A DNA stretch of 64,000 nt, from NCBI RefSeq assembly GCF_000381765.1, contig NZ_KB907085.1:1-64000 (forward strand), given 5' to 3'. The notes under the pieces are model-generated. The model did no database searches, was not told the DNA's origin, and saw only the letters and a program-made list of their open reading frames with translations. The translations under genes and the position numbers were made by a program. This DNA comes from [Zimmermannella] faecalis ATCC 13722. GTDB taxonomy: Bacteria > Actinomycetota > Actinomycetes > Actinomycetales > Microbacteriaceae. Positions 6,528 to 53,209 of the stretch are shown in pieces (positions within the stretch are counted from its first letter, which is position 1; each line of letters opens with the position of its first letter).

Positions 6528-7430
6528 ATGGCCACCGCAATCACCGGCCTTAGCGCCTTCCCGCTCACGCCCCTGCGCGACGACCACGTCGACACGGCCG
6601 CGTTCGCGGCCCTCGTCGAGCGACTCAGCGCCGCGGGCGTCGACTCGATCACCGCGCTCGGATCGACCGGCTCGTACGCGTACCTTGACGCCGCCGAGCG
6701 GGCCGAGGTCGCCCGCCTCGCCGTCGAGCACGCCGGCACGACGCCCGTATTCGTCGGCGTCGGCGCGCTGCGCACCTCCCACGTGCTCGCGAACGTCGCG
6801 AGCGCCGAGCGCGCGGGCGCCGCGGGCGTGCTGCTCGCGCCGATGACGTACCAGCCGCTCACCGACGACGACGTCGTCGAGCTGTTCCGCGCGGTCACCG
6901 ACGCGACCGACCTCCCCGTCATCGCGTACGACAACCCCGGCACCACCCACTTCACGTTCTCGACCGAGCTCTACGCGCGCATCGCCGAGCTCCCGGGCGT
7001 CGCGTCGATCAAGATTCCCGCTGTGCCCGCCGACCTCGGCAAGGCGCGGGAACGCGTCGCGCGCATCCGGGCCGTCGTGCCCGACACCGTGTCGATCGGC
7101 GTCTCGGGCGACGCCGCGGGCGCCCGCGGGCTGCTCGCCGGCTGCGACGCCTGGTATTCGGTCATCGGCGGCACGCTCCCGGCCGCGACCCTCGCGATCT
7201 CGCGGCCGGCCGCCGCGGGCGACGTCGACGCCGCGCTCGCGGCCTCGCAGCGGCTCGCGCCGGTGTGGGACTTGTTCGCCGAGTTCGGCAGCCTGCGCGT
7301 CACCGCGGCGATCGCCGAGCACCTCGGCCTCGCGCCCGAGCGCTGCCTACCGCTGCCGATTCTCGGACTCGACGACGCTGCGCGCGAGCGAGTCGTGGGC
7401 GTCGTCGACGAGCTCGGGCTCGCCAGCTGA
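6528..7430 (+). CDS. Dihydrodipicolinate synthase/N-acetylneuraminate lyase-family aldolase
   Basis: A 300-residue TIM-barrel class I aldolase of the DapA/NanA family. The Schiff-base lysine is K162 in SIKIPAVP, and the partner tyrosine is Y134 in IAYDNPG. The substrate loop reads GSTGSY (45-50), where true DHDPS enzymes usually have G-T/S-T-G-E, so the substrate may not be aspartate semialdehyde. The ATG at 6528 follows AAGGAG by 8 bases. The stop is 2 bases from the GTG of the phosphopantetheinyl transferase, so the two are co-translated. A DapA-like enzyme here could feed lysine to the synthetase next door, but that is inference. Confidence 0.85.
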   Translation: MATAITGLSAFPLTPLRDDHVDTAAFAALVERLSAAGVDSITALGSTGSYAYLDAAERAEVARLAVEHAGTTPVFVGVGALRTSHVLANVASAERAGAAGVLLAPMTYQPLTDDDVVELFRAVTDATDLPVIAYDNPGTTHFTFSTELYARIAELPGVASIKIPAVPADLGKARERVARIRAVVPDTVSIGVSGDAAGARGLLAGCDAWYSVIGGTLPAATLAISRPAAAGDVDAALAASQRLAPVWDLFAEFGSLRVTAAIAEHLGLAPERCLPLPILGLDDAARERVVGVVDELGLAS

Positions 7431-7432
7431 CC

Positions 7433-7999
7433 GTGACCAGCCTCGAGCCGGGATGGCCGCGGGTCGTCGCGCTGCCCGACGGCACTCGCCTCGCGTGGGC
7501 TCCGCTCGACGCGAGGCCCCGGCGCGATGTGTCGCGTGGCCTCCTGCGGATGCTCCTCGCCGAGTCGCCCTGCGCGGATCAGCTTCGTGACGCGCCCCTC
7601 GCCCAGCGGTGCGCGGCGTGCGGCAGCGCGACGCACGGGCAGCTGCGCCTCGACGCCCCGGGCGCGCCCCTCGTCAGCGTGAGCTACGCGGGCGGATACG
7701 CCGTGACCGCCGTCGCGCCCGCGGGCTCGGCCGAGTTCGGCATCGACGCCGAGCCCGACACCGAGTTGACCCGGCGCGCGGTCGCGGAGTCGCTCGGCTG
7801 GGGTGCCGGCCACCGCCCCGACCGCGCCGTCGCGGAATGGACGCGCCTCGAGGCCATCGCGAAGGCGCGCGGCACGGGGCTTCGCGGCGACTGGCAGCAC
7901 CCGCGCGCCGACGACTTCGAGGTCGTGACCCGCGCGCTTGGTGCCCCCGCGTATCCGCTCATCGTCGCGGTCGCGCGCCGACCGGCCCCGAGTAACTAG
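7433..7999 (+). CDS. 4'-phosphopantetheinyl transferase superfamily protein
   Basis: A 188-residue Sfp-type transferase, which moves the phosphopantetheine arm of CoA to a carrier-protein serine. The magnesium-binding motif is FGIDAEPD (D105, E107). The second motif is EWTRLEAIAKARGTGL (W136, E140, K144), matching W-x-x-x-E-A-x-x-K. The N-terminal half is shorter and less typical than Sfp. Start GTG, 2 bases after the aldolase stop. Its obvious nearby client is the carrier domain (S612) of the large synthetase encoded on the opposite strand. The stop codon lies inside a 19-bp tandem repeat. Confidence 0.8.
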   Translation: MTSLEPGWPRVVALPDGTRLAWAPLDARPRRDVSRGLLRMLLAESPCADQLRDAPLAQRCAACGSATHGQLRLDAPGAPLVSVSYAGGYAVTAVAPAGSAEFGIDAEPDTELTRRAVAESLGWGAGHRPDRAVAEWTRLEAIAKARGTGLRGDWQHPRADDFEVVTRALGAPAYPLIVAVARRPAPSN

Positions 8000-8046
8000 G
8001 CCGACCCCGAGCAGCTAGACCGACCCCGAGCAGCTAGGCCGACCCG
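7990..8046. repeat. 19-bp tandem repeat, three units, over a stop codon
   Basis: Units 7990-8008, 8009-8027 and 8028-8046 differ at one to three positions each. The first unit contains the transferase stop codon and a second in-frame TAG. It looks like recent slippage in the 70-base convergent gap. Confidence 0.8.
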
Positions 8047-8068
8047 AACCCCTCAGCCGCGCTCGGCC

Positions 8069-9376
8069 TCAGTTCGCGGAGGGAAGTGGCGGCAGCGCAG
8101 TGTCGAACAGCCAGGCTTGCCAGACCTCGTCGAGCGACTCCCCCGCGACCTCGACCGCGAGCGCCGTGAAGTCGGCGGTGATGGCGAGCCGGTGGCGCCG
8201 CTCGGTGGCCCAGCGCAACAGCAGGGTGCGGAACGGCTCGTCACCGAGGCGGCGCCGCAGCGTCTCGAGCAGCAGCGCGCCGCGCTTGTACACGCGGTCG
8301 TCGAAGAGGTCGCGCTCACCCGGGTCGGTGAGCACGAGATTCTGCGGCAACCGCGCGAGCTTGCCGTGGTGGAGCTCGGCGCAGTCGCCGATGCTCGGGC
8401 CGTCCGAGGCCTCCGACCACACCCACTCCGAGTAGCAGGCGAAGCCCTCGTTGAGCCAGATGTCCTCCCACTTCGCGATGCCGACGCTGTTGCCGAACCA
8501 CTGGTGCGCGAGCTCGTGTGCGATGAGCCGCTGCTCCTCGGGCGCGCAGTGGTTCGCGCCGAACGTCGCCATGCCCTGCGCCTCGAGCGGAATCTCGAGG
8601 TCTTCTTCGGTGACGACCGTCGTGAGGTCTTCTTGCGGGTATGGGCCGAACCACTCCTCGAACACCCGCACCATGTCGGGCAGCGGCGCGAACGCCTGGC
8701 GCACGCGGGGCCACTGCGCGGCCGGGGTCACGACGCGGCCCGTGCCGAGGGGATACTCGCGATACTCACCGACGTGCACCGCCATGAGGTAGGTCGCGGT
8801 GGGCACGCCGCTCGCGAAGGTCCAGGCGCGCTTGCCGCCGCGGGTGCGCACGTGCCCCTGCGTGCCCGTGATTGCGACGAAGAACTCGCGGTCGCAGGTG
8901 AAGCGCACGTCGTAGGTCGCGCGATCGTCAACGCGGTCGTTGCACGGGAACCAGGTGGGGGCGCCGATCGGCTGCGACGCGACGAGGGCGCCGTTGTCGA
9001 GCTCTTCCCAACCGATGTGGCCCCAGCGCGAGCGGTACGGCGCGGGCCGGCCCGCGTAGTCGAGCTCAAGCCGCAACTCGGTGCCGGGCGCGAGCGGCGC
9101 GTCGAACTTCACCTGCACTGCGCGGCGCGACTGCGTGAACTGCTTGTGCGCCCGGCCGTTCACCCGCACCTTCGCGGCCTTGAGCCCGATGAGGTCGACC
9201 TTGAGCGCCTTCGTCTCGGCGAGCACCGTGACGTCGAGCGTCGCCGTGCCGTCGAGCCGGTTCGTGCGCGGCGTGTAATCGAGGTCGAGCGCGTAGTGCC
9301 GCACGGCATAGCGCGGGTCGCCCGTGTCGGGCATATAGGGATGCGGGGCGCGGTGGGTGGTGGCGGGAGTGATCAT
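8069..9376 (-). CDS. M1-family zinc aminopeptidase
   Basis: A 435-residue M1 metallopeptidase. Zinc ligands are H287 and H291 in HELAHQWFG and E310 in WLNEGF, with E288 as catalytic base. The region before the zinc site reads PLEAQGMATFG, the short actinobacterial substitute for the GAMEN exopeptidase motif. There is no signal peptide. The protein has only the N-terminal beta and catalytic domains, so it is about half the length of PepN. Start ATG at 9376; M15 (9334) is possible because no clear Shine-Dalgarno is seen. It lies 106 bases downstream of the synthetase on the same strand, so the two are likely co-transcribed. In epsilon-poly-lysine producers a zinc aminopeptidase (PldII, as I recall) is encoded next to pls. 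Confidence 0.9.
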   Translation of the reverse strand: MITPATTHRAPHPYMPDTGDPRYAVRHYALDLDYTPRTNRLDGTATLDVTVLAETKALKVDLIGLKAAKVRVNGRAHKQFTQSRRAVQVKFDAPLAPGTELRLELDYAGRPAPYRSRWGHIGWEELDNGALVASQPIGAPTWFPCNDRVDDRATYDVRFTCDREFFVAITGTQGHVRTRGGKRAWTFASGVPTATYLMAVHVGEYREYPLGTGRVVTPAAQWPRVRQAFAPLPDMVRVFEEWFGPYPQEDLTTVVTEEDLEIPLEAQGMATFGANHCAPEEQRLIAHELAHQWFGNSVGIAKWEDIWLNEGFACYSEWVWSEASDGPSIGDCAELHHGKLARLPQNLVLTDPGERDLFDDRVYKRGALLLETLRRRLGDEPFRTLLLRWATERRHRLAITADFTALAVEVAGESLDEVWQAWLFDTALPPLPSAN

Positions 9377-9482
9377 CAGCGCGTTTCGGTACGAGGGCGG
9401 AGCGACTTGCAGCCTACGCGGTGGGCGACGGCCAGGTCATCGGATGGGTCGGGTCGTCGGCTGGGCAAGGGCACCGGATGCG

Positions 9483-12400
9483 CTACTTCGTCGATTGATA
9501 GGCCCGCGCCTTCACCGCGCGCCACGGGCCGATGGGGTTCCCGCTCCACCGGGAGCCGACCGGCACCTGTTCGCCGCGCATGACGAGCGACGCGGGGCCG
9601 ACGGTCGCGTGGTCGCCAATCGAGGCGGCGGGAAGAATCACGCTGTGCGGCCCGAGCGTCGCGCCCGCACCGAGCTCGACGGCGTCGATGCTCATGATGC
9701 GATCGTGGAACAGGTGGGTCTGAACGACGCAGCCGCGATTCACGGTCGAGCCGTCGCCGAGGGTGACGAGGTCGGGCTCGGGCAGCCAGTACGAGTCACA
9801 CCACACGCCGTGGCCGACCTTCGCGCCGAGCGTGCGCAGCCATACGGCCATCGCGGGCGTGCCGACGGCGGCGCGCGCGAACCACGGCGCCGCGAGCATC
9901 TCGGTGAACGTATCGCTCACCTCGGTGCGCCACACGAAACTCGACCACAGGGGCTGCTCGCCGGCGCGGATCGGCCCGACGATCACCCACTTCGCGATCG
10001 TCGTGATGAGCGCCGCGACCGCGCCGGCCGCGAGCATCACGACGCCCGAGAGCAGGAGTGACCAGACCCAACCCGTACTTATCCAGAGCCAGGCGAAGGT
10101 GAACAGCACGGCGACGCCGAGCCCGTGCGACACGATCACCGGCACGATGCGGCACAGCTCCCAGAGCGTGCGCGCGATGCGCAGGCGCGCGCCGGGGTTG
10201 TACGTGCGCTCGTCGGCGCCCTCCTGCGTCACGCGGCGCAGTCGAACCGGCGGCGAGCCGAGCCACGACGACCCCGACTTCGCCTTCGACGGCGCGGCCG
10301 AAAGCACGGCGACGAGCGAGTTCTTCGGCACGCGATGGCCCGGCTGCGCCATGCCAGAGTTGCCGAGGAACGCCCGCTTGCCGATGCGCACCTCACCGAC
10401 GCGCAGCCAGCCGCGGTGCAGCTCGTACGAGCCGACCATCGTGTCGTCGGCGAGGAACGCGCCGTCGTCGATGCGGGTCATCTTTGGCAGCAGCAGCACC
10501 GTCGAAGCCTCGACGTTCTTGCCCACCTTCGCCCCGAGCATCCGCAGCCAGACCGGGGTGAACAGGCTCGAGTAGAGCGGGAACAGGAAGTTGCGGGCGG
10601 CGTCGAGGAGGCGCTCCGTGGTCCACACCTGCCAGCCGACGCGGCTGTGCACCGGGTAGGTGCCCTCGCGCACGCCGATCGAGCAGCACCGCACGAGCAC
10701 GACGACCCCACCCGCGTAGACGAGGCCGGCCGCGAGCACGGCGGGCACGAGCCAGGCGAGCGCGCCGAGGAACCCGGCCGCGAGCGTTTCGGCGCCGCGC
10801 ATCCCCGTGCTGAGCACGAGCGCGCCGACGGCGTACGCGACGAACGGGAGCAGCGCGAGTGTCACCGATGAGCATCCGTACGCGAACTTCCACGCGCGGA
10901 CCTGCGGCGCGGTGCCCTTCGGCCAGCCCTCGGCAGCCTTGCGGCGCTTCGAGTCTTTCGCGCCGCCGATGCGCACGGCGGGCGACCCCGCCCAGAGCTG
11001 GTCGGGCTTCACCCGCCCGAACACGGCCGAGCCCGGCGAGATCTCGGCGCCGTCGTCGATGCGGGTGCCCGGCGCGAGCGTCGAGCGCGCCCCGACCGTG
11101 ACGTTGCGGCCGATGCGCACGCCGCCGAGGCGCAGCAGGTCGCCGTCGATCCAGTAGCCGGTGAGGTCGACCTCGGGTTCGACCGCGCTGCCGCGACCGA
11201 TCTCGAGCATGCCCGAGATCGGGGGCAGCGAGTGCAGGCTCACCTCGCGGTCGATCTTCGCGCCGAGCGCGCGGGCATACACCGTCACCCACGGGGCGCC
11301 GGCGAGGCCGACGGCGTCGATCTGCGTCGCGAACTGTTCGGCGAGCCACAGGCGCATGTGCACGGCGCCGCCGCGCGGATAGTCGCCCGGTTTCACGCCA
11401 GCGAGCAGGATGCGCGCGACGAGCACCGCGAAGGCCATGCGACCGAACGGGGTCGAGACGAGCAGCAGCCCGACGATGAGCACCCACCAGGGCGCGCTCG
11501 GCAGCGCGGCGAACGCGTCGGCGTCGAGGGCGCGCAGCAGCGTCGTGCCCGTGAGCAGGTAGAGCAGCCAGCGCACGCCGCTCGCGATGAACAGGGGGAT
11601 GCCCGCGAGGGTCTGCGCCCACTGCGTGCGGCGGGGCGTCGGGCGCGGCTGGTGGTAGCTGTCGGGGTCGGCGTGCTCCTGCGTCGCCGCGATCGCCTTC
11701 GCCATGGCGGCGAGGCGGGGCACGTCGTAGATGTCGGCGACCGTGAACTCGGGCACGCGGGTGCGGATGCGCGACACGAGCTGCGCCGCCGCGAGCGAGC
11801 CACCGCCGAGGTCGAAGAAATCGGCGGAGACACTCGGCACGGGCACGCCGAGCACCGACTGCCACTGCTCAACGAGCCAGCGTTCGGTGCCGTCGAGTCC
11901 CGCGGCGCCGTCAAGGCCCTCCCCCGCGGCCGCGCCCGGGATCGGCCACGGCAGCGCGGCGCGGTCTACCTTGCCCGACGTACGGATCGGCAGCGACTCG
12001 ACCACCGCGAGCAGCGGCATGACGCCGGCTGCGAGGCGGTCGGCGAGGAACTCGCGGGCGTACTTTCGGTCAAGCTCCTCGTCGCCCTCGACGACGAGGT
12101 AGCCGACGAGCACGGGCACGCCCGCGTCGCTATTGCGTACGGCCGCGGCGGCCGCCGTCACGCCCGGGAGGTCCTGCAGCGCGTTCTCGACCTCGCCGAG
12201 CTCGATGCGTCGGCCGCCGACCTTCACCTGATCGTCGGCGCGGCCGAGGAACATGAGTCCCGACTCCTCGTAGCGCACGAGGTCGCCCGAGCGGTACGCG
12301 CGCTCCCAGCCGAGCGACGGCATCGGCGCGTACTTCTCGGCGTCCTTGGCGGGGTCGAGGTAGTGAGCGAGGCCGACGCCGCCGATGATGAGTTCACCCT

Positions 12401-13631
12401 GTTCTCCCGGGGCAACGCGGGTGCCGGCCGGGTCGACAACCGCGAGGTCCCAACCGTCGAGCGGCAGGCCGATGCTCACGGGGTTCACGCCGTCGAGGCG
12501 GCAGCCGCACGACACAACGGTCGCCTCGGTCGGGCCGTACGTGTTCCAAACCTCGCGCTCGTCGTCGACGAGTCGGGCGACGAGCTCGGGCGGGCAGGCT
12601 TCGCCACCGAAGATGAGTAGACGCACGTTCTCGATCGCCTCGGCGGGCCACATCGCCGCGAGCGTCGGCACGGTCGACACCACCGAGATGCTCTGGCGCA
12701 CGAGCCACTGCGCGAGGTCTTCGCCCGAGCGCACGAGCGCGCGCGGCGCCGGCACGAGGCAGGCGCCGTGACGCCACGCGAGCCACATCTCTTCGCACGA
12801 GGCGTCGAACGCGACCGAGAGCCCCGCGAGCACGCGGTCGCCGGGCCCGAGCGGGTCGGCCTGGAGGAACATGTTCGCCTCGGCGTCGACGAACGCCGCG
12901 GCCGAGCGGTGCGTCACCGCGACGCCCTTCGGCACACCCGTCGAGCCCGACGTGAAGATGATCCAGGCATCGTCGTCGAGCGCCGGGTCGTCGCGGTCGA
13001 TCGGCGTCTCGGGCGGTTCGACCCCGCCTGGCTCGACCGGCCGCGGCACGTAGCCGTCGTTGCCGATGATGCCAGCGACGTGCGCCTCGCCAAACACGAG
13101 CCGCGCTCGTTCTTCCGTGTCGTCGGCGTCGACGGGCACGTACGCCGCGCGGGCGCGCATGATCGCAAGAATCGCAATGTAGAGCCGCTGCGAGCCCGAG
13201 TCGACGCGCACGCCGACGCGGTCGCCCGGCCGCACGCCCGAGTCGCGGAGCGCATCCGCCGTCGCCTCAACCTCATCAAGCAGCTGCGCGTAGCTCAGGG
13301 CTGCCGAGCCGTCGTCGATCGCGGAGGCCTCGGGATGCGCCTCAGCCGTCGCGCGCAGCACGTCGATGAGCGTGCGTGGCTCGGGCGCGAGGTGGCCGCG
13401 CGTGAGCGGCGCCTGATCGCTCGCGTGGGGTGCGGGGTCTGTGCCGTTGGTGGTGTCTGGTGTTGCTGCGGCAGGGATTGCGGCGCCAGGGGCCGCCGCG
13501 TCTGGGGTTGCCGCGTCGGGGGTTGCCGCACCTGAGGCGTTGGCGTCGTCTGAGGTGCTGGCGTCGGTGTTGCTGGCGTCAGGGGCGCCATCGTCTGGGA
13601 CGTCAGCATCGGGGGTCGGGTGCGTCTGCAC
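9483..13631 (-). CDS. pls: Pls/PosA-type NRPS-like homopoly(amino acid) synthetase
   Basis: A 1382-residue single-module synthetase with the architecture of epsilon-poly-L-lysine synthetase. Residues 1-80 are Ala/Pro/Asp-rich linker. The adenylation domain spans about 85-560: FTSGSTGVPKG (226-236), NTYGPTEA (363-370), YRSGDL (446-451), GRADDQVKVGGRRIE (463-477) and SGKVDR with K554. The carrier site is S612 in DLGGGS. From about 675 on, hydrophobic helices (around 675-700, 714-745, 917-985, 1150-1215) alternate with three left-handed beta-helix acyltransferase-like domains (about 785-890, 1030-1130, 1265-1370), as in the TIGR02353 terminal region. The GTG start has GGAG 6 bases upstream. There is no thioesterase. 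The pocket reads D276 A277 E280 S319 I340 G342 T364 V372 V373 K554, which looks lysine-like. The product is inferred, not shown. Confidence 0.85.
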   Translation of the reverse strand: MQTHPTPDADVPDDGAPDASNTDASTSDDANASGAATPDAATPDAAAPGAAIPAAATPDTTNGTDPAPHASDQAPLTRGHLAPEPRTLIDVLRATAEAHPEASAIDDGSAALSYAQLLDEVEATADALRDSGVRPGDRVGVRVDSGSQRLYIAILAIMRARAAYVPVDADDTEERARLVFGEAHVAGIIGNDGYVPRPVEPGGVEPPETPIDRDDPALDDDAWIIFTSGSTGVPKGVAVTHRSAAAFVDAEANMFLQADPLGPGDRVLAGLSVAFDASCEEMWLAWRHGACLVPAPRALVRSGEDLAQWLVRQSISVVSTVPTLAAMWPAEAIENVRLLIFGGEACPPELVARLVDDEREVWNTYGPTEATVVSCGCRLDGVNPVSIGLPLDGWDLAVVDPAGTRVAPGEQGELIIGGVGLAHYLDPAKDAEKYAPMPSLGWERAYRSGDLVRYEESGLMFLGRADDQVKVGGRRIELGEVENALQDLPGVTAAAAAVRNSDAGVPVLVGYLVVEGDEELDRKYAREFLADRLAAGVMPLLAVVESLPIRTSGKVDRAALPWPIPGAAAGEGLDGAAGLDGTERWLVEQWQSVLGVPVPSVSADFFDLGGGSLAAAQLVSRIRTRVPEFTVADIYDVPRLAAMAKAIAATQEHADPDSYHQPRPTPRRTQWAQTLAGIPLFIASGVRWLLYLLTGTTLLRALDADAFAALPSAPWWVLIVGLLLVSTPFGRMAFAVLVARILLAGVKPGDYPRGGAVHMRLWLAEQFATQIDAVGLAGAPWVTVYARALGAKIDREVSLHSLPPISGMLEIGRGSAVEPEVDLTGYWIDGDLLRLGGVRIGRNVTVGARSTLAPGTRIDDGAEISPGSAVFGRVKPDQLWAGSPAVRIGGAKDSKRRKAAEGWPKGTAPQVRAWKFAYGCSSVTLALLPFVAYAVGALVLSTGMRGAETLAAGFLGALAWLVPAVLAAGLVYAGGVVVLVRCCSIGVREGTYPVHSRVGWQVWTTERLLDAARNFLFPLYSSLFTPVWLRMLGAKVGKNVEASTVLLLPKMTRIDDGAFLADDTMVGSYELHRGWLRVGEVRIGKRAFLGNSGMAQPGHRVPKNSLVAVLSAAPSKAKSGSSWLGSPPVRLRRVTQEGADERTYNPGARLRIARTLWELCRIVPVIVSHGLGVAVLFTFAWLWISTGWVWSLLLSGVVMLAAGAVAALITTIAKWVIVGPIRAGEQPLWSSFVWRTEVSDTFTEMLAAPWFARAAVGTPAMAVWLRTLGAKVGHGVWCDSYWLPEPDLVTLGDGSTVNRGCVVQTHLFHDRIMSIDAVELGAGATLGPHSVILPAASIGDHATVGPASLVMRGEQVPVGSRWSGNPIGPWRAVKARAYQSTK

Positions 13632-13790
13632 GTGCTCCGGGCTCCTTCGTCACAACACCGCAGTGGCGTTGGCAGGCAGGCGGTCGGTCAAATCGGGGTG
13701 ATTGTCTCACTGCCAAGCGACGCCCCGGTGTCGCGCCGTTAATCCCCCAGTGGCGTGCTGCGCGATATCGCTGCCGTCCGCTGCTGGCCC

Positions 13791-14426: not shown

Positions 14427-14851
14427 TCGTCACGGCAGACATCTCCGCCGCACCCCTCGACGTCGCGGCGCACCTCGACGCGGTCACGACCTCCGAGACG
14501 GGCGCGACGTCGGTGTTCGTCGGCACGGTGCGCGACCACGACCCCGACGCCGCGGGCGAGGTGACCGCGCTCGAGTACAGTTCGCATCCCGACGCCGCGG
14601 CGCAGCTCGCCGAACTCGCCCGCGCCTGCGACCGCGACGACGTGCGCATCGCGGTGTCGCACCGCACCGGGGCGCTCCGCGTCGGCGACACCGCCATCGT
14701 GTGCGCCGTCGCGAGCGCGCACCGAGCCGACGCGTTCGACGTGTGTCGCGAGGTCGTCGAGCGGGTGAAGCACGAGCTGCCCGTCTGGAAGAAGCAGGTC
14801 GAGGCCGACGGCACGGCGCACTGGGTCGGGTTGGGGACGCTCGCATCATGA
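14423..14851 (+). CDS. moaE: Molybdopterin synthase catalytic subunit MoaE
   Basis: The 142-residue large subunit of molybdopterin synthase, which moves sulfur from the MoaD thiocarboxylate to precursor Z (cPMP). Visible marks are TSVFVGTVRDHD, LEYSSHPDAA (the family has LEYE) and VSHRTGALRVGDTAIVCAV. The conserved late segment LPVWKKQVEADGTAHWVG holds the active-site lysines. It overlaps mog at its start and moaA at its end by 4 bases each. Its MoaD partner is encoded about 1 kb away on the opposite strand. Confidence 0.93.
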   Translation: MIVTADISAAPLDVAAHLDAVTTSETGATSVFVGTVRDHDPDAAGEVTALEYSSHPDAAAQLAELARACDRDDVRIAVSHRTGALRVGDTAIVCAVASAHRADAFDVCREVVERVKHELPVWKKQVEADGTAHWVGLGTLAS

Positions 14852-15855
14852 ACGTCTTCGACGGGCCCCTCACCGACCGGTACGGCCGCGTGCACCGCGA
14901 CCTGCGCATCTCGCTCACCGACAAGTGCAACCTGCGCTGCACCTACTGCATGCCGGCGGAAGGCGTGCCCTGGCTGTCGAAGCAGAACATCCTCACGACC
15001 GACGAGATCGAGCGAGTCGCGCGCATCCTTGCCCGCCTCGGCATCGTCGAGGTGCGGCTCACGGGCGGCGAACCGCTGCTGCGCCCCGACCTCGTCGATG
15101 TCGTGCGCCGGCTCGCGCGCATCGAGGGGACGGAGGGCCCGCTGCGCGTGTCAATCACGACGAACGGGATTCGCCTCGATCACGTCATCGATGACCTCGT
15201 GGCGGCGGGGCTCGAGCGGCTCAACATCAGCATCGACACGGTGAATCCCGAGCGATTCGCGAAGCTCACCCGGCGCGACAAGTTCACCGACGTGCTCGCA
15301 GGAATCGAGGCGGCACAACACTCGGGTCTGCGCCCGCTCAAGCTCAACACGGTCGCGATGCGCGGCGTGAACGACGACGAGTTCTGCGACCTGCTGCGGT
15401 TTGCCCGTGACCACGACGCGCAGCTGCGGTTCATCGAGCAGATGCCGCTCGACGCCGGCCACATTTGGTCGCGCGTCGAGATGGTGCGCGGCGAAGAGAT
15501 TCTCGAGCAGCTCACCCGCGAGTTCGACCTCGAGCCATACGGCGATCGCGGCTCGAGCCCGGCGCAGGAGTTCCTCGTCGACGGCGGGCCGACGACGGTG
15601 GGCGTGATTGCCTCGGTGACGGCGCCGTTCTGCGGCGCGTGCGACCGCGTTCGACTCACCGCCGACGGGCAGATTCGCAACTGCCTGTTCGCGCGCGACG
15701 AATCCGACCTGCTCTCGCTGCTGCGCGGCAATGGCACCGACGAGGACATCGCCCGCATGCTCCGCAGCAACATCGAGATGAAGCTGCCGGGTCACGGCAT
15801 CAACGACCCGGGATTCTTGCAGCCCGACCGCCCGATGTCGGCGATCGGCGGCTAA
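14848..15855 (+). CDS. moaA: GTP 3',8-cyclase MoaA (radical SAM)
   Basis: A 335-residue radical-SAM enzyme that starts molybdenum cofactor synthesis by rearranging GTP. The SAM-binding [4Fe-4S] cluster ligands are C27, C31 and C34 (CNLRCTYC). The C-terminal cluster uses CGACDRVRLTADGQIRNC. The protein ends in Gly-Gly, required for activity in the family. The ATG at 14848 overlaps the moaE stop (ATGA). It is the last gene of its operon and converges on moaD with a 31-base gap. Confidence 0.95.
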   Translation: MNVFDGPLTDRYGRVHRDLRISLTDKCNLRCTYCMPAEGVPWLSKQNILTTDEIERVARILARLGIVEVRLTGGEPLLRPDLVDVVRRLARIEGTEGPLRVSITTNGIRLDHVIDDLVAAGLERLNISIDTVNPERFAKLTRRDKFTDVLAGIEAAQHSGLRPLKLNTVAMRGVNDDEFCDLLRFARDHDAQLRFIEQMPLDAGHIWSRVEMVRGEEILEQLTREFDLEPYGDRGSSPAQEFLVDGGPTTVGVIASVTAPFCGACDRVRLTADGQIRNCLFARDESDLLSLLRGNGTDEDIARMLRSNIEMKLPGHGINDPGFLQPDRPMSAIGG

Positions 15856-15886
15856 CGAGCGCCACCAGGCTCGTGCGGCAGCGGCC

Positions 15887-16138
15887 CTAGCCGCCGGCGA
15901 ACGGGGGCAGGATGTCGAGGGTCGCGCCGGCCGCGACCGGCACGTCGTCGTCGGCGCGGCGGCCGTCGATCATGACGCTGCAGCGCGACAGCACGTCGGC
16001 GAACTCGGCACCGTGCCGCTCGCGCAGGGCCGCGCGCACGTCGCCCACGACCGCGTTCGCGGCCACGTCGAGCGACGCTTCCTCGGTGCCGGCGGCGTCG
16101 GCGGCACCGGCGAACAGGCGCACCGTTACCGTTGCCAT
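15887..16138 (-). CDS. moaD: Molybdopterin synthase sulfur-carrier subunit MoaD
   Basis: An 83-residue ubiquitin-like sulfur carrier. It ends in PPFAGG, the di-glycine tail that MoeB adenylates and that then carries the thiocarboxylate. The start ATG at 16138 lies inside the last codons of the DUF6457 gene (13-base overlap). Last gene of the moeB-moeA-moaC-mobA-DUF6457-moaD operon. Confidence 0.93.
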   Translation of the reverse strand: MATVTVRLFAGAADAAGTEEASLDVAANAVVGDVRAALRERHGAEFADVLSRCSVMIDGRRADDDVPVAAGATLDILPPFAGG

Positions 16139-16368
16139 TCGCTGACCGCCTCTCGCGCAACCTCGGCGGCCTCGTCGGGCGTGCGGCCGGCCGCCACGGC
16201 GAGCCCCATGAGGTAGGTCGTGATCGGCCCGGCGGGGCGCACGACCCCGTGGGCCGCGTCGCGCGTGACGTTGAGCAGCATCCCGGTCGGCACCTCGCTC
16301 GGGTCGATGCCGAACTTCTCCGCGAGCGTGTCGACCCACCGCTGCAGGTCTTCGGGTGTGTCAGCCAT
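16126..16368 (-). CDS. Small DUF6457-type protein between mobA and moaD
   Basis: An 80-residue soluble protein with a conserved-looking pattern LQRWVDTLAEKFGID, then LLNVTRDAAHGVVRPAGPITTYLMGLAV. I recognise it as the DUF6457 type, found beside or fused to MobA in actinobacteria. No catalytic motif is evident. It overlaps mobA by 8 bases and moaD by 13, so its dose is tied to cofactor enzymes. A role as partner or chaperone of MobA is only inferred from position. Confidence 0.75.
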   Translation of the reverse strand: MADTPEDLQRWVDTLAEKFGIDPSEVPTGMLLNVTRDAAHGVVRPAGPITTYLMGLAVAAGRTPDEAAEVAREAVSEWQR

Positions 16369-16954
16369 CGGATGTTCCTTCCGCAGTTTCCGACTCATTC
16401 GCAGGGTACGCGGCAATCGCGTCCCAGGTGTCCAGGTCGATCGCGAGGTCGCCCACGGCAACCTCGCGCAGTCGGAGCGGTGCGAGCAGCCGCCGCATCG
16501 ATGCCCCGTCGACCTCACCAACTGCCGCGAGCGCGGCGCGCAGCGACGCGACCTGATAGCGGCCGGCGAGCCACTGCATCCGCCCCTCGCCGTCGACCGC
16601 AACGACGCCGTCACGGCCGGTGGGAATCGCGGCCCCGGCCAGTGCGGCAACGAGCGCCGGCGCCCGCGGGAGGTCACACGCGAGCAGCCACACCTCGTCG
16701 GGTTCGTCGGGTTCGAGCGCGGCGACGCCGGCCGCGACCGCGGCGACGGGGCCCCCAAACGGCGGCTCTTCGCGCACGACCGTCACGCCGGGCCGCGCGA
16801 GCGATGCCGGGCCGACCGCGACCACCGGCGAGCATCCCGACACCGCCGCGTACGCGTAGTCGACGAGCGCCCGCCCCGCGACCGAGACTGCGGCCTTGTC
16901 GGCCCCGCCGAGCCGCGAAGCGCGCCCGCCCGCGAGCACGATCGCGCCGATCAT
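16361..16954 (-). CDS. mobA: Molybdenum cofactor guanylyltransferase MobA
   Basis: A 197-residue nucleotidyltransferase that adds GMP to molybdopterin. The N-terminus [20 protein letters not shown] is the GTP-binding loop, and [10 protein letters not shown] contains the metal-binding Asp. The start ATG at 16954 overlaps the moaC stop by ATGA. A longer frame of five codons exists but lies inside moaC. The presence of MobA fits the bis-MGD oxidoreductase encoded at 23394. Confidence 0.92.
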
Positions 16955-17424
16955 TCGGGCCGCCGCCACTCCCCGCTCTTGCCGCCAGTCTTGCGCAGCA
17001 GCCGCACGTTCGAGATCTCCACACCCTTGTCGAGCGCCTTGACCATGTCGACGAACGCGAGCGCCGCAACCGACACCGCGGTGAGCGCCTCCATCTCGAC
17101 GCCGGTGCGGTCGGCGGTGCGCACGGTCGCCTCGATGCGCACGCCCTCGTCGGTCACCTCGAGGTCGACGACCGCGCCGTGCACGCCGATCACGTGCGCG
17201 AGCGGCAGCAGCTCGGGGGTGCGTTTCGCGGCGGCGATGCCCGAGATGCGGGCGACGGCGAGTACGTCGCCCTTTGGCACGGCGCCGTCACGAATCGCGG
17301 CGACGACCTCGGGGGCGCAGCGCACGAACCCCTCGGCGGTCGCCGAACGCACGGTCGGCTGTTTCTCGGTGACGTCAACCATGCGCGCGTTTCCGGCATC
17401 GTCGAGGTGGGTGAATTTGGTCAT
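16951..17424 (-). CDS. moaC: Cyclic pyranopterin monophosphate synthase MoaC
   Basis: The 157-residue partner of MoaA in making cPMP. Family motifs seen are [30 protein letters not shown] (the usual reads PLCHPI) and [42 protein letters not shown] is the conserved C-terminus. The usual Cys and Pro of P-L-C-H-P are Ala and Val here, a visible deviation. ATGA overlaps tie it to moeA upstream and mobA downstream. Confidence 0.93.
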
Positions 17425-18623
17425 GTGAGCTCCATCACGATCACGTCGTCTCCTTCTTCGACCCGTTCAACGTCGGCGGGAATCAGCGCGTAGGCTTCGG
17501 CGCGACCCAGGGAGGCGACGAGGTGCGACCCGCTGCCGCCGCGCGCCGACGGGCGAACGCCATTGCCCTCGAGCACAACGGGGAGCACTTGCGCTCGGCC
17601 AACCGGGGTTTTCCACGCCGCGAGCGCGCGCCTTGTCACGCGGGGCCGGTCGATTTGGGCGACCCCCGCGAGCTGGAGCAGCGCCGGGCGAACGAACATC
17701 TCGAACGAGACGGCGACGCTCACGGGGTTGCCGGGCAGACAGAACGCGAGGGCACCGCCCGGGAGCGTGCCGAACCCCTGCGGCTTGCCCGGCTGCATCG
17801 CGACCTTGTCGAACCGCACGTCGGGCAGCTCCCCGAGCACCGACTTCACGACGTCGAACGAGCCGACGCTCGCGCCGCCCGAAAGAATGACGACGTCGAC
17901 ATCGAGCCCCTCGACGACGGCCCGCAGCGCGTCGTCGTCATCGGGAACGATGTGCACCGACGCGACCTCGGCGCCTGCCTCGCGCACGCACCCGGCGAGC
18001 AGCACCGAGTTGGATTCGGGAATCTGGCCGCGCTGCGGCGTCGCGCCCGGGGGCACGAGTTCGCTGCCGGTCGAGATGATCGCGACGCGCGCCGCGGGCA
18101 CCACGCGCACCCGGTCGTGCCCCGCCGACGCGATCGACGAGAGGTCGCGGGCCCCGAGCCGAGTCCCCGCCGCAACGACTTCCGTTCCGGCGCGCGCGTC
18201 CTCGCCCTCGCGGCGGATGTGCGCACCCGGCTTCGGCTCGGCGGTGACGGTAATCTGCGCGGGCGGCGTCGCCCGCACCTCGGTGCCCTCGGCGGTTGCC
18301 TCGAGTGGTACGACGGCGTCGGCGGCCGACGGCACGGGCGCGCCGGTCATGATGCGCGCCGCCTCGCCGGGGCCGAGGTCGGGGTCGTCTGCGCTGCCGG
18401 CCGGCACATCGGCGACGACCCGCAGCACGGCGCCCTCGGTCGCGTCGGCCCCGCGCACGGCGTAGCCGTCCATCGCCGAGTTGTCGAAGAGCGGCACCGG
18501 CCAGCGGGTCGCGATCGGCTCGGCGAGCACGAGCCCGAGGGCATCGGTGAGCGGCAGCTCGACCGGCGGCAGCTGCGCCGCTGCGGCGAGCACGCGCGCC
18601 CGGTGGGCTTCGAGGTCAATCAT
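17421..18623 (-). CDS. moeA: Molybdopterin molybdenumtransferase MoeA
   Basis: A 400-residue enzyme that inserts molybdate into adenylated molybdopterin. Visible marks are [51 protein letters not shown] and [20 protein letters not shown]. The ATG at 18623 has AAGGAG 5 bases upstream and overlaps the moeB stop (ATGA). Domains run in the normal order and the length is normal. Confidence 0.95.
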
Positions 18624-19828
18624 GCGGACTCCTTCGCTGCGCCAGGTTTGCTCGTGGGGCCAGGTTTGCTCGTGGCGCCAGTGTCGTTCGTGGGGCCAGG
18701 TTCGGTCGTGGCGCCAGGCCCCTCTGTCGCCGACGCTGCCCGGCGCGCATCTTCGCCCGCCTGCGCCGCCCAGGCGCCGTATCCCCCGGCCAGCAGCAGC
18801 ACGCGCGCGTCGGGGCGCGCCGCCCGCAGTGCCCGGCCGGCCGCGCGCGACCGCGGCCCGAGCTGGCAGAACAGCACGATCGTCTCGCCCTCGGGCACCG
18901 CGTCGGGATGCGCGAGCAGGGTGTCGAGCGGCACGGCCGCCGCCCCGGGAATCGTGCCGGCTGCGACCTCGTCGGGCCGGCGCACGTCGACGAGCGCAAC
19001 CTCGCGCGACGCGCGCAGCGACGCGAGCTCGCCCGGCAGGACGTACTGCAGTCGCGCATCCACAGCCGGCGCGAGCGCGACCTCGCGGGTGCGTGCCGTG
19101 CGGGCATCGAGCACGAGCATGCGCCCCACGAGCGGTTCGCCGATGCCGCACACGAGCTTCACGGCCTCGGTCACGAGCAGCGAGCCGACCTGCCCGCAGA
19201 GCGACCCAACGACGCCGGCCTCGGCGCACGACGGCACGGTTCCCGCCGCAGGCGGTTCGGGAAACACGTCGCACAGCCCGATCGCCTGGCCCGCCGTCGG
19301 CCGCGACCAGAACACGCTCACCTGCGCGTCGAACTGCAGCACCGACCCCCACACGAGCGGCACGCCGAGCGCGTCGCAGGCGTCGGCTACTGAGTAGCGT
19401 GTCTCGAAGCTGTCGCTGCCGTCGATGACGAGGTCGTAGCCGTCGAGCAGCGAAACGGCATTCTCGGCGGTGAGCCACTGCCGCAGCTCGCGCACCTCGG
19501 TGTCGGGGGCGAGGGCACGGATGCGCTCGGCCGCGACCTCGGACTTCGGCCGCCCGACGTCACCGATGCCGAAGAGCACCTGCCGCTGCAGGTTCGACTC
19601 GTCGACGACGTCATCGTCAACGATGCCGATCGTGCCGACCCCGGCCGAAGCTAGATAAAGGAGTACGGGCGACCCAATGCCGCCCGCGCCAATCACCGCG
19701 ACGCGAGCCGCGGCGAGCCGGCGCTGCCCGACCTCGCCGATTTCGGGCAGCCTCCGCTGCCGTGCCGACCGGCGCGCCTCTGCGTCACCGAGCCGCGAGG
19801 CCGGTTCGACAAGCGGGGGAAAGAGCAT
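18620..19828 (-). CDS. moeB: MoeB/MoeZ-type adenylyltransferase-sulfurtransferase (ThiF + rhodanese)
   Basis: A 402-residue activator of MoaD: an N-terminal ThiF/E1 domain (GAGGIGS nucleotide loop near residue 46, FPEPPAAGTVPSCAEAG) and a C-terminal rhodanese domain with the loop CQLGPRS. The zinc CxxC pairs of typical MoeB are not visible: the first has one Cys and the second is absent. The C-terminus is a repetitive tail of G-(A/P)-T-x-x-P hexapeptides coded by an 18-bp tandem repeat. Start ATG at 19828; the frame upstream runs on but is not family-like. First gene of the six-gene cofactor operon, divergent from modA. Confidence 0.9.
   Translation of the reverse strand: MLFPPLVEPASRLGDAEARRSARQRRLPEIGEVGQRRLAAARVAVIGAGGIGSPVLLYLASAGVGTIGIVDDDVVDESNLQRQVLFGIGDVGRPKSEVAAERIRALAPDTEVRELRQWLTAENAVSLLDGYDLVIDGSDSFETRYSVADACDALGVPLVWGSVLQFDAQVSVFWSRPTAGQAIGLCDVFPEPPAAGTVPSCAEAGVVGSLCGQVGSLLVTEAVKLVCGIGEPLVGRMLVLDARTARTREVALAPAVDARLQYVLPGELASLRASREVALVDVRRPDEVAAGTIPGAAAVPLDTLLAHPDAVPEGETIVLFCQLGPRSRAAGRALRAARPDARVLLLAGGYGAWAAQAGEDARRAASATEGPGATTEPGPTNDTGATSKPGPTSKPGAAKESA
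18639..18728 (-). repeat. 18-bp tandem repeat in the moeB 3' end, five units
   Basis: Units start at 18639, 18657, 18675, 18693 and 18711. They stay in frame and code for alternating GATxxP and GPTxxx hexapeptides. Only the tail after the rhodanese domain is affected. Confidence 0.85.
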
Positions 19829-19870
19829 GCTCGTTACGTTAGTCGGCCCCACCGACACGCACGCCACAGC

Positions 19871-19876
19871 TACGCT
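19871..19876 (+). promoter_or_regulatory. -10 element (TACGCT) of leaderless modABC
   Basis: TACGCT is followed by 6 bases and the modA ATG at 19883; no Shine-Dalgarno is present. The whole moeB-modA divergent gap is only 54 bases, so both promoters must overlap. Confidence 0.5.
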
Positions 19877-19882
19877 CGGGAC

Positions 19883-20680
19883 ATGACGACTCTGCGCCGA
19901 TTCTCGATCGTTGCTGCCGCCGCGACGCTGCTCCTCACCGGATGTTCCGCCGCTGACTCGCCCCACGTCACGTCTGGCGCCGGCAACGGCGACGCGGCCG
20001 CGAGCGAACCCGTCATCATCTACGCCGCTGCCTCACTGCAGGCGAGCTTCGACGAGCTCGCCGAGGCCTTCACGCAGGCGCACCCCGAGTATTCGGTCGA
20101 CCCGATCACCTACGACGGCTCACAGGCGCTCGCAACGCAGATCGAAGACGGCGCCGATGTCGACGTCGTCGCATTCGCGAGTGAGAAGAGCATCGTGCCC
20201 CTCACCGACGCATCGCTCATTGGCGAGACGCAGCTGTTTGCCACGAACACGCTGCAGATCGCGGTGCCCGCCGGCAATCCGAAGGGTATCGAGCGTCTCG
20301 ACGACCTCACCGACCCCGAGATCAGCGTCGTGCTCTGCGCCGTCGAGGTGCCGTGCGGTTCGGCAAGCGAGACGCTCCTCGACGACGCCGGGCTCGACAT
20401 CACGCCCGTGAGCGAAGAGACGAACGTCACCTCGGTCGTCAACCGCATCGAAAACGGCGAGGCCGACGCGGGCCTCGTCTACGCAACCGACGTCATCGAC
20501 GCCGGCGACAAGCTCGAGGGCATCACGCCCGACAACGCCGACTCGGCGATCAACCGGTACCCCATCGCCGTATCGCAGAACGCGAAGTCGCCCGAGGCCG
20601 CCGAGGCGTTCGTCGAGTTCGTGCTCTCCGACGAGGGCCAGGCGATCCTCGAGGCGCACGGCTTCGGCTCGGCCGAGTGA
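19883..20680 (+). CDS. modA: Molybdate ABC transporter substrate-binding lipoprotein ModA
   Basis: A 265-residue periplasmic-type binding protein for molybdate or tungstate. The N-terminus is a lipoprotein signal (LLLTGC lipobox, cleavage before C21). The mature start IIYAAASLQASFDELAEAF carries the serine-rich oxyanion loop. GLVYATDV near residue 195 is the second ligand loop. It starts modABC, and the stop overlaps modB by GTGA. A leaderless promoter is likely. Confidence 0.93.
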   Translation: MTTLRRFSIVAAAATLLLTGCSAADSPHVTSGAGNGDAAASEPVIIYAAASLQASFDELAEAFTQAHPEYSVDPITYDGSQALATQIEDGADVDVVAFASEKSIVPLTDASLIGETQLFATNTLQIAVPAGNPKGIERLDDLTDPEISVVLCAVEVPCGSASETLLDDAGLDITPVSEETNVTSVVNRIENGEADAGLVYATDVIDAGDKLEGITPDNADSAINRYPIAVSQNAKSPEAAEAFVEFVLSDEGQAILEAHGFGSAE

Positions 20681-21465
20681 CACTCCCCCGCGGAATCCGA
20701 CTCGCGGCGGCAGTGGGGCTCGTGGCCCTGCTGCTGCCGCTCGTCGGGCTCGTCACGCGGGTGAACTGGCCGACATTCTGGAACGACCTCGGTTCGAAGG
20801 AGTCGCTCACCGCGCTCGGGCTCTCGGTCGCGACCGCGACGTGCGCGACCCTCCTCTGTCTCGTCGGCGGCGTGCCGCTCGCGATCATGCTCGCACGTGC
20901 GTCGCAGCGCACCGCCGCGATCGCCCGCACCCTCGTGACGGTGCCCCTTGTGCTGCCGCCCACGGTCGGCGGCCTCGCGCTCATCTCGCTGCTCGGGCGA
21001 TCGGGCCTCATCGGCCAGCCGATCTTCGCCTCGACCGGGTTCAGCCTGCCCTACACGACCGTCGCCGTCGTCATCGCGCAGGCCTTCGTGTCGTTCCCCT
21101 TCCTTGTGATCACGCTCGAGGGCGCGCTGCGCACCTCAGGCACCGCGCACGAACAGGTCGCCGCGAGCCTCGGCGCGAACCCGTGGCGCGTGCTCACCCG
21201 AGTCACCCTGCCGCTGCTGCTGCCTGGGCTGCTCGCCGGCACGGCGCTCTGCTTCGCCCGGGCGGTCGGCGAGTTCGGCGCAACGGCGCTGTTCGCCGGC
21301 AACACCGCGGGCGTCACCCGCACGATGCCGCTCGCGATCTACACCGCGTTCAACGGCGTCGGGGTGTCAAAGGAGTCGGCCGTCGCCCTCTCGGTGCTCC
21401 TGCTTGTCGCGGCCGCCGCCATCGTCGGCGGCATGCGCTCGTGGCGAGAGGATCCGGTGCGATGA
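20677..21465 (+). CDS. modB: Molybdate ABC transporter permease ModB
   Basis: A 262-residue inner-membrane permease. It has about six helices and the EAA loop EQVAASLGANPWRVLTRVTLP, which contacts the ATPase. PLVLPPTVGGLALI is typical of ModB. The start is the GTG at 20677 overlapping the modA stop (GTGA). The frame is open upstream but lies over modA. The end overlaps modC (ATGA). Confidence 0.93.
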   Translation: MTLPRGIRLAAAVGLVALLLPLVGLVTRVNWPTFWNDLGSKESLTALGLSVATATCATLLCLVGGVPLAIMLARASQRTAAIARTLVTVPLVLPPTVGGLALISLLGRSGLIGQPIFASTGFSLPYTTVAVVIAQAFVSFPFLVITLEGALRTSGTAHEQVAASLGANPWRVLTRVTLPLLLPGLLAGTALCFARAVGEFGATALFAGNTAGVTRTMPLAIYTAFNGVGVSKESAVALSVLLLVAAAAIVGGMRSWREDPVR

Positions 21466-22499
21466 GCACACCGCTCCACGTCGATCTCACCGCGACTCGC
21501 GGCACGTTCGAGCTGCGCACCGCCTTCGACCTCGCGCCCGGCGAGCGCCTCAGCGTGCTCGGGCCAAACGGCGCCGGCAAGTCGACTCTGCTCGGCGCGC
21601 TCGCCGGCAGCGTCCCGGCCACCGGCACGATTCGCCTCGGCGACCGGATGCTCAACGGCGGCCGCCGCCCGGTCGCGCCCCACGCGCGCCGCATCACGCT
21701 GCTCGATCAGAAACCGAGGCTGTTCCCGCACCTCGACGCCCGCGCGAACATCGCGTTCGGGCCCCGCTCGCGGGGTGTGAGCCGGAACGACGCCGCCGCG
21801 ATCGCCGACGACTGGCTCGGCCTGCTCGACCTCGCCGGCTTCGGCGACAGTAAACCCGAGGCGCTCTCGGGCGGGCAGCAGCAGCGCATCGCGATCGCCC
21901 GCGCGTTCGCCGCCGAACCCGACCTCGTACTGCTCGACGAGCCGTTTTCGGCGCTCGATGCCCGCACCGCGCCGCAGGTGCGCCGGCTCCTCCACGAGCA
22001 GCTGCAGGCGTCGCGCACGACGAGCATCCTCGTCACGCACGAGCTCGCCGACGCCTGGCAGTGGGCCGATCGGTGCCTCGTCATCGAGGGTGGCGAGGTC
22101 GTCGCCGACACCTCGCCGGCCGCGATCGCGTCGCGACCCGAGCATCCGTTCACCGCGGCCCTCGCCGGGTTCGGCGTCGTGCACGGCACGTGGTCGCGCG
22201 GGCGGCTCCTCGCCGACGGCCACGAACTCGCCGACGCGACGCCGATCGGGCCCATCGCCGAGGGCGACGCCGTCTTCGGCATCGCCGACCCCCGCGAGGT
22301 GCGCGTCGCCGCGCCCGACGAGCCGGGTGCGCTCCCCGGCCTCGTCATCGCCTCCTCGATTCGGGCGGGGATGCTCGAGCTCACCCACTCGTCGGGGCTC
22401 GTCGCCGAGGTGGCGGCGCCCACCACCGCCCCGTCGAGCGGCGACACCGTGTGGCTTCGCCCCGCCCGCATCGACGTGCGGCCCGCCCCGCATCGCTGA
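21462..22499 (+). CDS. modC: Molybdate ABC transporter ATP-binding protein ModC
   Basis: A 345-residue ABC ATPase: Walker [10 protein letters not shown], signature [16 protein letters not shown], Walker [14 protein letters not shown], switch HELAD. The roughly 110-residue tail after the ATPase matches a MOP/TOBE-like molybdate-sensing domain in position but is divergent. It ends 23 bases before fdhD. Confidence 0.93.
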
Positions 22500-22522: not shown

Positions 22523-23407
22523 ATGGGACGAATCACGACTTCGCGCCCCGTCGTCAAGGTCACGCTCGGCGAAGGCACGCGCCGCCGACCCGACTCGCTC
22601 GCGGTAGAGGAGCCGCTCGAGATTCGGGTGGCCGGCACGCCGCTCGCCGTGACGATGCGCACGCCGGGCCAAGATGTCGAGCTCGCCCTCGGCTTCCTCA
22701 TCTCTGAGGGCATCGTCGCGAGCGGCGACGAGTTCCGCTCGGCGATCCACTGCGGTGGGCCCGGTACGGGCGGAACCGAGAACACCTACAACGTGCTCGA
22801 TGTGAGCCTCGCCCCCGGCGTCGCGCTGCCGACCGACGCGCAGTCGCGCAACTTCTACACGACGAGCTCGTGCGGTGTGTGCGGCAAGGCGAGCATCGAC
22901 GCGGTCGAGACCGTCTCGCACTACGACGTCGCCGGCGACCCGGTGACGGTCGACGCCGAGGCACTCGCGACGTATCCGACCGTGCTGCGCGACCACCAGG
23001 CCGCGTTCGACAAGACCGGCGGCCTGCACGCCGCGGGGCTCTTCGACGCGGCGACCGGCGAGCTGCTCGTGCTGCGCGAAGACGTCGGCCGCCACAACGC
23101 CGTCGACAAGGTCGTCGGCTGGGCCGCGCTCCAGGGCCGGCTGCCCCTGACCGGCTGCGTGCTGCAGGTCTCGGGCCGAGCGAGTTTTGAGCTCGCGCAG
23201 AAGGCCGTCATGGCGGGGGTTCCGGTGCTCGCCGCGGTCTCGGCGCCCTCCTCCCTCGCGGTCGAGCTCGCGGCCCGCGCCGGCCTCACCCTCGTCGGGT
23301 TCCTCCGCGGCCGCTCGATGAACCTCTACGCCCGCGCCGATCGCATCGTGATTCCTACCGACTCTGCCACCGCTGCCGCAAAGGAGCTGCACCATGACTA
23401 CCACTGA
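22523..23407 (+). CDS. fdhD: Formate dehydrogenase accessory sulfurtransferase FdhD
   Basis: A 294-residue sulfurtransferase that brings sulfur from IscS to the bis-MGD cofactor of formate-dehydrogenase-like enzymes. The reactive pair is in [24 protein letters not shown] and [18 protein letters not shown] are family marks. The end overlaps the downstream oxidoreductase by 14 bases, so the protein is made together with its likely client. Confidence 0.94.
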
Positions 23408-32407: not shown

Positions 32408-32448
32408 GGGCCGTGGCCCTGCGCACCAGTTGCGCAGGGCCACGGCCC
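32408..32448. terminator. Perfect 18-bp hairpin after the GH106-like gene
   Basis: Arms 32408-32425 and 32431-32448 are exact inverted copies with a 5-base loop, 11 bases after the stop. No T-run, as usual for high-GC actinobacteria. Confidence 0.8.
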
Positions 32449-32465
32449 GCATCCGGCGAGGCGAC

Positions 32466-32538
32466 ACGGATGCGGTGGGCACAGTCGAGCGCCACGGCCG
32501 CACTTCCCCGCGACACCCGGCGCCGCCCACCGCATCCG
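32466..32538 (+). repeat. 72-bp intergenic repeat, copy 2
   Basis: Both ends are of the CGGATGCGGTGGGC type and are inverted copies of each other, so the element can fold into a long hairpin around the core. Confidence 0.8.
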
Positions 32539-32549
32539 AAGCGGCGACA

Positions 32550-32621
32550 CGGATGCGGTGGGCGCAGCCGAACGCCACGGCCACACTCGCCCACGTCGCC
32601 CACCTTCGCCCAGGTCATTCG
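32550..32621 (+). repeat. 72-bp intergenic repeat, copy 3
   Basis: In tandem with copy 2 (11 bases between). The left end is of the GGATGCGG type; the right end is of the CAGGTCATTCG type. Confidence 0.8.
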
Positions 32622-52933: not shown

Positions 52934-52990
52934 CCGCGTATCCGGCTGCGCGCGCCGCCCTCTCCCGGTCGCCGGCCGCGATCATCCGAT

Positions 52991-53062: not shown

Positions 53063-53074
53063 CCATCAAGCGAC

Positions 53075-53146: not shown

Positions 53147-53209
53147 CAATCGCAGCCGCCAGACGCAACCAGCAGCCGCCAGCCGCCACCCGCTAAACGG
53201 CAGCCCGAG

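Follow-up and report, generated by a model that had tools for sequence, protein, structure and literature searches.

Epsilon-poly-lysine is an antimicrobial polymer and a food preservative made in Streptomyces. The locus analyzed here raises the question of whether [Zimmermannella] faecalis ATCC 13722, a member of the Microbacteriaceae, carries the genes for such a polymer, and which of the neighboring genes belong to them. The locus lies in a stretch of 64,000 nucleotides (positions 1 to 64,000 of contig NZ_KB907085.1, hereafter the window) of a genome of 2.85 Mb in 17 contigs (G000). A sequence-only reading of this DNA had joined four genes into one system: those for a Pls-type synthetase (pls), an M1 peptidase, a phosphopantetheinyl transferase and a DapA-like protein. 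All four are in place, as is every other element described in that reading, and the doubtful point is the meaning of the dapA-like neighbor. Our answer is that three of the genes, pls and those for the peptidase and the transferase, very probably make up a cassette whose product is a cationic isopeptide, with epsilon-poly-L-lysine as the likeliest candidate. The dapA-like gene stands outside it, which corrects the four-gene view. The features concerned are the following.

9483..13631, minus strand: pls, Pls/PosA-family poly(amino acid) synthetase, 1382 residues, GTG start
Pls residues about 87-567: adenylation (A) domain
11691..11882, minus strand: carrier (PP-binding, T) domain, Pls residues 584-647, attachment Ser612 in GGGS
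Pls residues 672-1367: C-terminal membrane part with three hexapeptide-type domains
13642..13648, minus strand: GAAGGAG, likely ribosome-binding site of pls judging from the sequence, ten bases upstream of the GTG
8069..9376, minus strand: M1 zinc peptidase, PldII-like, 435 residues (Pfam Peptidase_M1, 87 bits)
7433..7999, plus strand: Sfp-type 4'-phosphopantetheinyl transferase, 188 residues, GTG start
6528..7430, plus strand: DHDPS/KDG-aldolase superfamily gene (106 bits), a neighbor only, judged to be outside the system

A gap of 106 nt separates the pls stop from the peptidase gene on the same strand, while the transferase and peptidase genes are convergent and 69 nt apart. Sigma-70 and terminator scans returned no site.

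The pls product matches TIGR02353 over residues 672-1367 (721 bits, cut-off 423) and the general amino-acid adenylation model (335 bits, cut-off 317). Pfam matches comprise AMP-binding, PP-binding and hexapeptide domains, and neither a thioesterase nor a condensation domain was matched by Pfam in this protein. The A and T domains without these two, together with the TIGR02353 score above cut-off, are features of the Pls/PosA family. The three C-terminal segments are mutually homologous (hhalign, 97-99%; probabilities 98.8, 96.7 and 98.8), and segments 1 and 3 match solved hexapeptide-repeat acyltransferases and gamma-carbonic anhydrases in profile searches (best E 8e-7). Since a simple hydropathy scan places hydrophobic stretches at residues 675-737, 922-980 and 1162-1210, the protein has three tandem acyltransferase-like domains between membrane segments, again as in the Pls/PosA family. 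The frame contains no internal stop and has a long Ala/Asp/Thr-rich N-terminal stretch.

To place this protein among its relatives we used two sets of loci. The first set has 86 loci (the best 80 of at least 592 confirmed loci from named genomes, five congener loci and the window); the second has 41 further loci, in each of which the pls frame was picked by similarity. Among the matches listed, the best named relatives of the synthetase are mostly Microbacterium, in which identity reaches 76% over the best segments. GGGS, the attachment motif, is present in 86/86 synthetases of the first set. The best match among solved structures is the A domain of the epsilon-poly-L-lysine synthase of S. albulus (7wew, 631 bits), with 317 of 494 aligned A-domain residues identical (64%). 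With the ten code positions placed by what we take to be the gramicidin-synthetase (GrsA) numbering, the substrate code reads DAESIGTVVK, equal in the window Pls and in 7wew. It recurs in all 86 proteins of the first set and in 40 of the 41 further ones. The sequence-only reading of a 1382-residue Pls-type A-carrier-membrane protein, with three tandem C-terminal repeat domains and no thioesterase, thus agrees with the TIGR02353 match, the lysine code, the A-domain identity, the hexapeptide structure matches and the Pfam scan.

The same-strand M1 zinc peptidase beside the synthetase, also described in that reading, proved to be a constant feature. In 86/86 loci the M1 frame with the best score shares the strand of pls. 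It overlaps the pls frame or comes within 300 nt of it in 82 of these, and in the other four (L062, L048, L041 and L042) the distance is 430 to 2068 nt. An M1 match was also found in the flank of each of the 41 further loci, that of L096 being weak (26% identity) and on the opposite strand. The window peptidase has the motifs HELAHQW, WLNEGFA and DRVYKRGA, and it keeps the glutamate of the GxMEN position as LEAQG. Across the 86 M1 proteins HExxH, WLxEGFA, YKRGA and the recognition Glu are invariant. With HExxH...E, the Tyr and the recognition Glu, the protein is an M1 peptidase of PldII type. One other M1 gene exists in the genome, with GAMEN as in PepN. A supposed loss of the aminopeptidase Glu from the window gene was discarded, since the Glu in GAMENAG of the PepN-like protein aligns (by eye) with that of LEAQG. 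The pls-pldII operon (PMC8117764, PMC4361855) and degradation of the polymer by PldII (PMC9223678) are known. By analogy, the M1 peptidase probably trims the polymer.

The transferase required a family-level approach. The window protein carries GIDAE and WTRLEAIAK, in agreement with GxDxE and W...(K)EAxxK, which we take to be the Sfp-type signature. Alone, it scores 18.4 bits against Pfam ACPS (cut-off 25), and no NCBIfam model, HetI included, matches it at E 0.01. The profile of its family, however, matches B. subtilis Sfp (1qr0) with E 1.4e-5, and among 34 family members 20 match Pfam ACPS and 16 match NCBIfam HetI (E ≤ 0.01). Residues C60, H68, D105, E107, W136, E140 and K144 are invariant in the 32-row alignment A1; in the 34-row alignment A2 E107 is found in 30 rows and the other six residues in all 34. 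The family also carries a CxxC...HG motif. Compared with the Sfp/HetI-type transferases, the window member is short and divergent and has this motif. The Sfp-type transferase that had been recognized beside the aldolase gene is therefore upheld by the family profile, by the retained signature residues and by its co-occurrence with pls. A 19-bp tandem repeat at 7982-8045 (3.4 copies, 88% matches) spans its stop codon.

Co-occurrence was assessed by calling pls present wherever TIGR02353 matched at E ≤ 1e-50. Six of 11 genomes of the genus have pls, and the same six have the transferase (Fisher p 0.002). In 150 genomes of the family, with the transferase scored on up to 28 first-look candidates in each, TIGR02353 matched in 59 and the transferase profile in 70. 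Both are present in 59 genomes, and the synthetase alone in none. The transferase is thus present in 59/59 genomes with TIGR02353 as against 11/91 without it (Fisher p 7e-31, relatedness ignored); counted by genus, TIGR02353 occurs in 37/85 and the transferase in 44/85. The two genes are also close together, within 5 kb in 55 of the 59 genomes, the transferase being downstream and convergent in 50 and upstream on the same strand in five (G014, G059, G095, G111 and G133). Among the other four, the genes are on different contigs in G114 and G076, 7.7 kb apart in G157 and 886 kb apart in G017. In G100, one of the 59, the synthetase match is split over two frames.

The 80 named loci were sorted by record title into 44 of Micrococcales type (one a Propionibacteriaceae assembly) and 36 of Mycobacteriales type. 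A linked transferase was found in 39, all among the 44 of Micrococcales type. In 34 of the 39 it is the convergent neighbor of the peptidase gene and in five it lies elsewhere in the locus. Several loci are cut by contig ends, and L063, one of the five Micrococcales-type misses, ends 520 nt past the peptidase match. The phosphopantetheinyl transferase is a real and regular third partner of pls.

Some further observations concern individual pls loci. In one congener (L113:6082-6562, G009) the transferase beside pls is broken over two frames, by assembly error or decay. In two congeners (L114 and L115; G001 and G008) Pls is 53-54% identical to that of the window, and in three others 83-85%; these sequences suggest replacement or transfer of pls within the genus. 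Pls homologues 55-59% identical are present on Rhodococcus and Mycobacterium plasmid records (H3-H5, H9-H13), and 83 of 72,556 plasmid records match pls at E ≤ 1e-50.

The way in which the three genes would act together builds on the gene identities, the lysine code, the catalytic residues, the linkage and the co-occurrence observed above, with product, polymerization and degradation modeled on characterized relatives in Streptomyces, Kitasatospora and Corynebacterium. From genome content alone we infer that the transferase is the activator of Pls, and the small enzyme would put a 4'-phosphopantetheine arm on Ser612. The A domain would adenylate L-lysine and then load it onto the arm. In the membrane part, with its three acyltransferase-like domains, the loaded lysine would be joined via the epsilon-amine of another, and the chain would be released without a thioesterase. 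The M1 peptidase would hydrolyze the polymer, either limiting its length or protecting the producer. As to the wider role of the transferase, it may be that in Microbacteriaceae and Micrococcaceae-type bacteria pls forms a self-sufficient cassette with a dedicated Sfp-type enzyme, which would make Pls active in AcpS-only hosts; we find this proposal evenly balanced between true and false.

Several points weigh against the proposed cassette and have to be considered together. The transferase profile holds rows from the tested genomes (A1 draws on the window and on four further congeneric genomes out of the five others with pls, and some of the 150 family genomes may equal named loci that supplied rows), which makes the presence side of the co-occurrence partly circular; the absences are not affected. 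Eleven of the 91 family genomes without pls still have a transferase match, and in the DNA of all 36 Mycobacteriales-type pls loci no linked transferase was found. The window transferase is itself divergent and short (188 residues). A simple hydropathy scan detected no hydrophobic stretch in the window peptidase (10/86 of the set have one), in which it differs from S. albulus PldII, an enzyme reported at the cell surface (PMC9223678). Finally, neither C. variabile itself nor C. glutamicum made polymer from the C. variabile pls gene (PMC8117764), so that a complete locus is no guarantee of production.

The transferase matches in genomes without pls bear on the alternative that the enzyme is a general one, serving any carrier protein, and stands beside pls since pls is usually the sole carrier gene outside fatty acid synthesis. 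We surveyed PP-binding places in 43 genomes: the 11 with a transferase and no pls, ten congeners and 22 taken from the top of the family lists. Each of the 12 surveyed pls genomes has at least two such places, one of which falls in the Pls frame (exactly two in 11 genomes, three in G016). Of the 20 with neither gene, 15 have one PP-binding place or none and five have two. In the 11 transferase-only genomes, by comparison, eight have at least two and three have one, and in seven a PP-binding place is found no more than 10 kb from the transferase (coordinates compared by eye). Hence the transferase tends to accompany whichever extra carrier gene is present, in pls genomes that of Pls. On the other side, the analyzed genome itself has only two PP-binding places, of which one is the Pls carrier domain and the other a 117-residue frame (a short acyl carrier protein, ACP). 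Its one ACPS-family place over cut-off is a 121-residue frame, which from its length we take to be AcpS; this model misses the window transferase gene, which in turn is the one place in the genome that the transferase profile matches. We regard a general transferase as a serious possibility, if a tentative one. Since Pls is the only candidate client found besides ACP, the practical outcome would be the same.

That the pls locus is silent or decayed and yields no product is an unlikely alternative. Part of the C. variabile report speaks for it, in that pls there required a foreign promoter and host (PMC8117764). The window pls, however, has no internal stop, its catalytic residues are intact and it is conserved across many species.

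According to the C. variabile paper, the protein was made in C. glutamicum without polymer, and polymer was obtained in S. coelicolor under another promoter (PMC8117764). Should Pls indeed depend on a dedicated transferase, the absence of a cognate enzyme could partly explain how a foreign host comes to make Pls protein and no polymer. For C. variabile pls expressed in C. glutamicum, it would be an alternative to the promoter explanation. A control genome named C. glutamicum has a TIGR02353 match (E ≤ 1e-50 and over cut-off), so that the host may already hold the needed factor; this weighs against the missing-transferase explanation.

It is less probable still that the synthetase makes a polymer of another diamino acid, be it ornithine, diaminobutyrate, diaminopropionate or beta-lysine. 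The synthetase family does cover all these substrates (PMC10522769). The lysine code is also not automatic for the family, as indicated by the code DFEYNGTVTK of L096, the exception in the second set, which is from the same order and another family. A class-III aminotransferase gene is present at 62661-63986, about 49 kb away. However, the window code differs from those of PosA (DMEHNGTVSK) and the poly-beta-lysine enzyme (DGESISVVNK), and its second position is Ala as in lysine enzymes, where PosA has Met and the diaminopropionate and diaminobutyrate enzymes have Phe (codes and position 2 as given in PMC10522769). Among the scanned direct neighbors, which did not include every frame, no gene for making an amino acid was found. 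A poly-beta-lysine reading from the radical-SAM gene at 14701 was dropped as this gene is MoaA (TIGR02666, 365 bits) and not a lysine aminomutase. Given the code identity to 7wew and the published contrasts, lysine is the best-supported substrate of the window Pls, and epsilon-poly-L-lysine its most likely product.

The sequence-only reading had assigned precursor supply to the DapA-like gene, and this part does not hold. DHDPS-family matches at E ≤ 0.001 occur at six places in the genome, the window copy being the weakest. Against the dapA model TIGR00674 (cut-off 206) it scores 106 bits, and the only place over the cut-off is the one on C7, with 272 bits. The motifs YDIPGR and GTTGE of that gene are YDNPGT and GSTGS in the window copy, with Thr replacing the Arg after the Tyr motif, residues whose functional meaning we presume. 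No DapA-family match was found in the pls loci of the five congeners (16-18 kb each), and only one of the 80 named loci (L069) has a weak one, about 2.9 kb upstream of pls. In L112 and L113 the transferase adjoins a YeiH-type gene with no DapA-like gene between; here a YeiH-type gene is upstream of the DapA-like gene. Among the loci compared, the four genes are never together outside the window, which by the sequence-only reading's own test refutes the set of four and spares the set of three, which recurs in relatives. A four-gene group in which the DapA-like protein would support the making of lysine for polymerization is therefore most improbable: the two bases (7431-7432) between its stop and the transferase GTG on the same strand speak for it, and the score, the motif residues and its absence from 5/5 congener and 79/80 named loci remove it from the system. 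The gene is best read as an unrelated neighbor.

Further along the window, the stretch 14701-22499 near pls holds molybdenum cofactor genes (MoaA and MoeA), a solute-binding protein and an ABC protein, and a molybdopterin oxidoreductase follows at 23394-25757. A unit of 83-84 bp is tandemly duplicated at 32447-32612, 52976-53151 and 58095-58258. The three sites share a core, and its 12 bases, TGGGCACAGCCG, have 7 matches in the window (at most 1 mismatch) against 0.59 expected. These units look like a dispersed repeat family.

How much of the cassette was known before? S. albulus Pls shares the A-T-membrane layout, the three C-terminal domains, the code and the neighboring M1 peptidase. The two loci differ in that pls and the peptidase gene overlap by 4 bp in S. 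albulus (PMC4361855), whereas here there is the 106-nt gap, and in the linked transferase and the Ala/Asp/Thr-rich N-terminus of the window (the proteins being compared via the 7wew A domain). PldII of S. albulus, likened to the window peptidase by family, place and motif, is likewise an M1 enzyme encoded beside pls, and its catalytic motif is intact in the window. Closer in taxonomy are C. variabile Pls and its homologues in eight coryneform genera, Microbacterium and seven others, with the same family, peptidase neighbor and predicted substrate and with a pls-peptidase operon in Corynebacterium (PMC8117764). Hence the occurrence outside Streptomyces, suggested from the sequence, is not new: it had already been published for coryneform genera. 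In addition, the antiSMASH prediction class NAPAA (non-alpha poly-amino acids), to which the window is likened by description, is listed for two Microbacterium strains (PMC10456417) and for Micrococcaceae (PMC11078813).

A link between the transferase gene and pls is a different matter, as no mention of it was found in the open-licence literature searched, of which a small part was read. No term starting with phosphopantetheinyl occurs in the main text of PMC8117764, and this word has 0 occurrences in PMC9223678, PMC8506220 and PMC9205021. The phosphopantetheinyl passages of PMC8949500, PMC4361855 and PMC4668381 describe no such gene link.

The core pls-peptidase pair is thus of an already known kind and is well supported here, and the useful addition looks like the transferase as a third regular, seemingly overlooked partner. 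It gives genome mining a sharper signature, namely pls, M1 and transferase together. Compact, small-genome producers of epsilon-poly-lysine would be of practical interest. Should this transferase indeed activate Pls, its co-expression would be a simple test of why coryneform pls genes are silent or inactive in new hosts.

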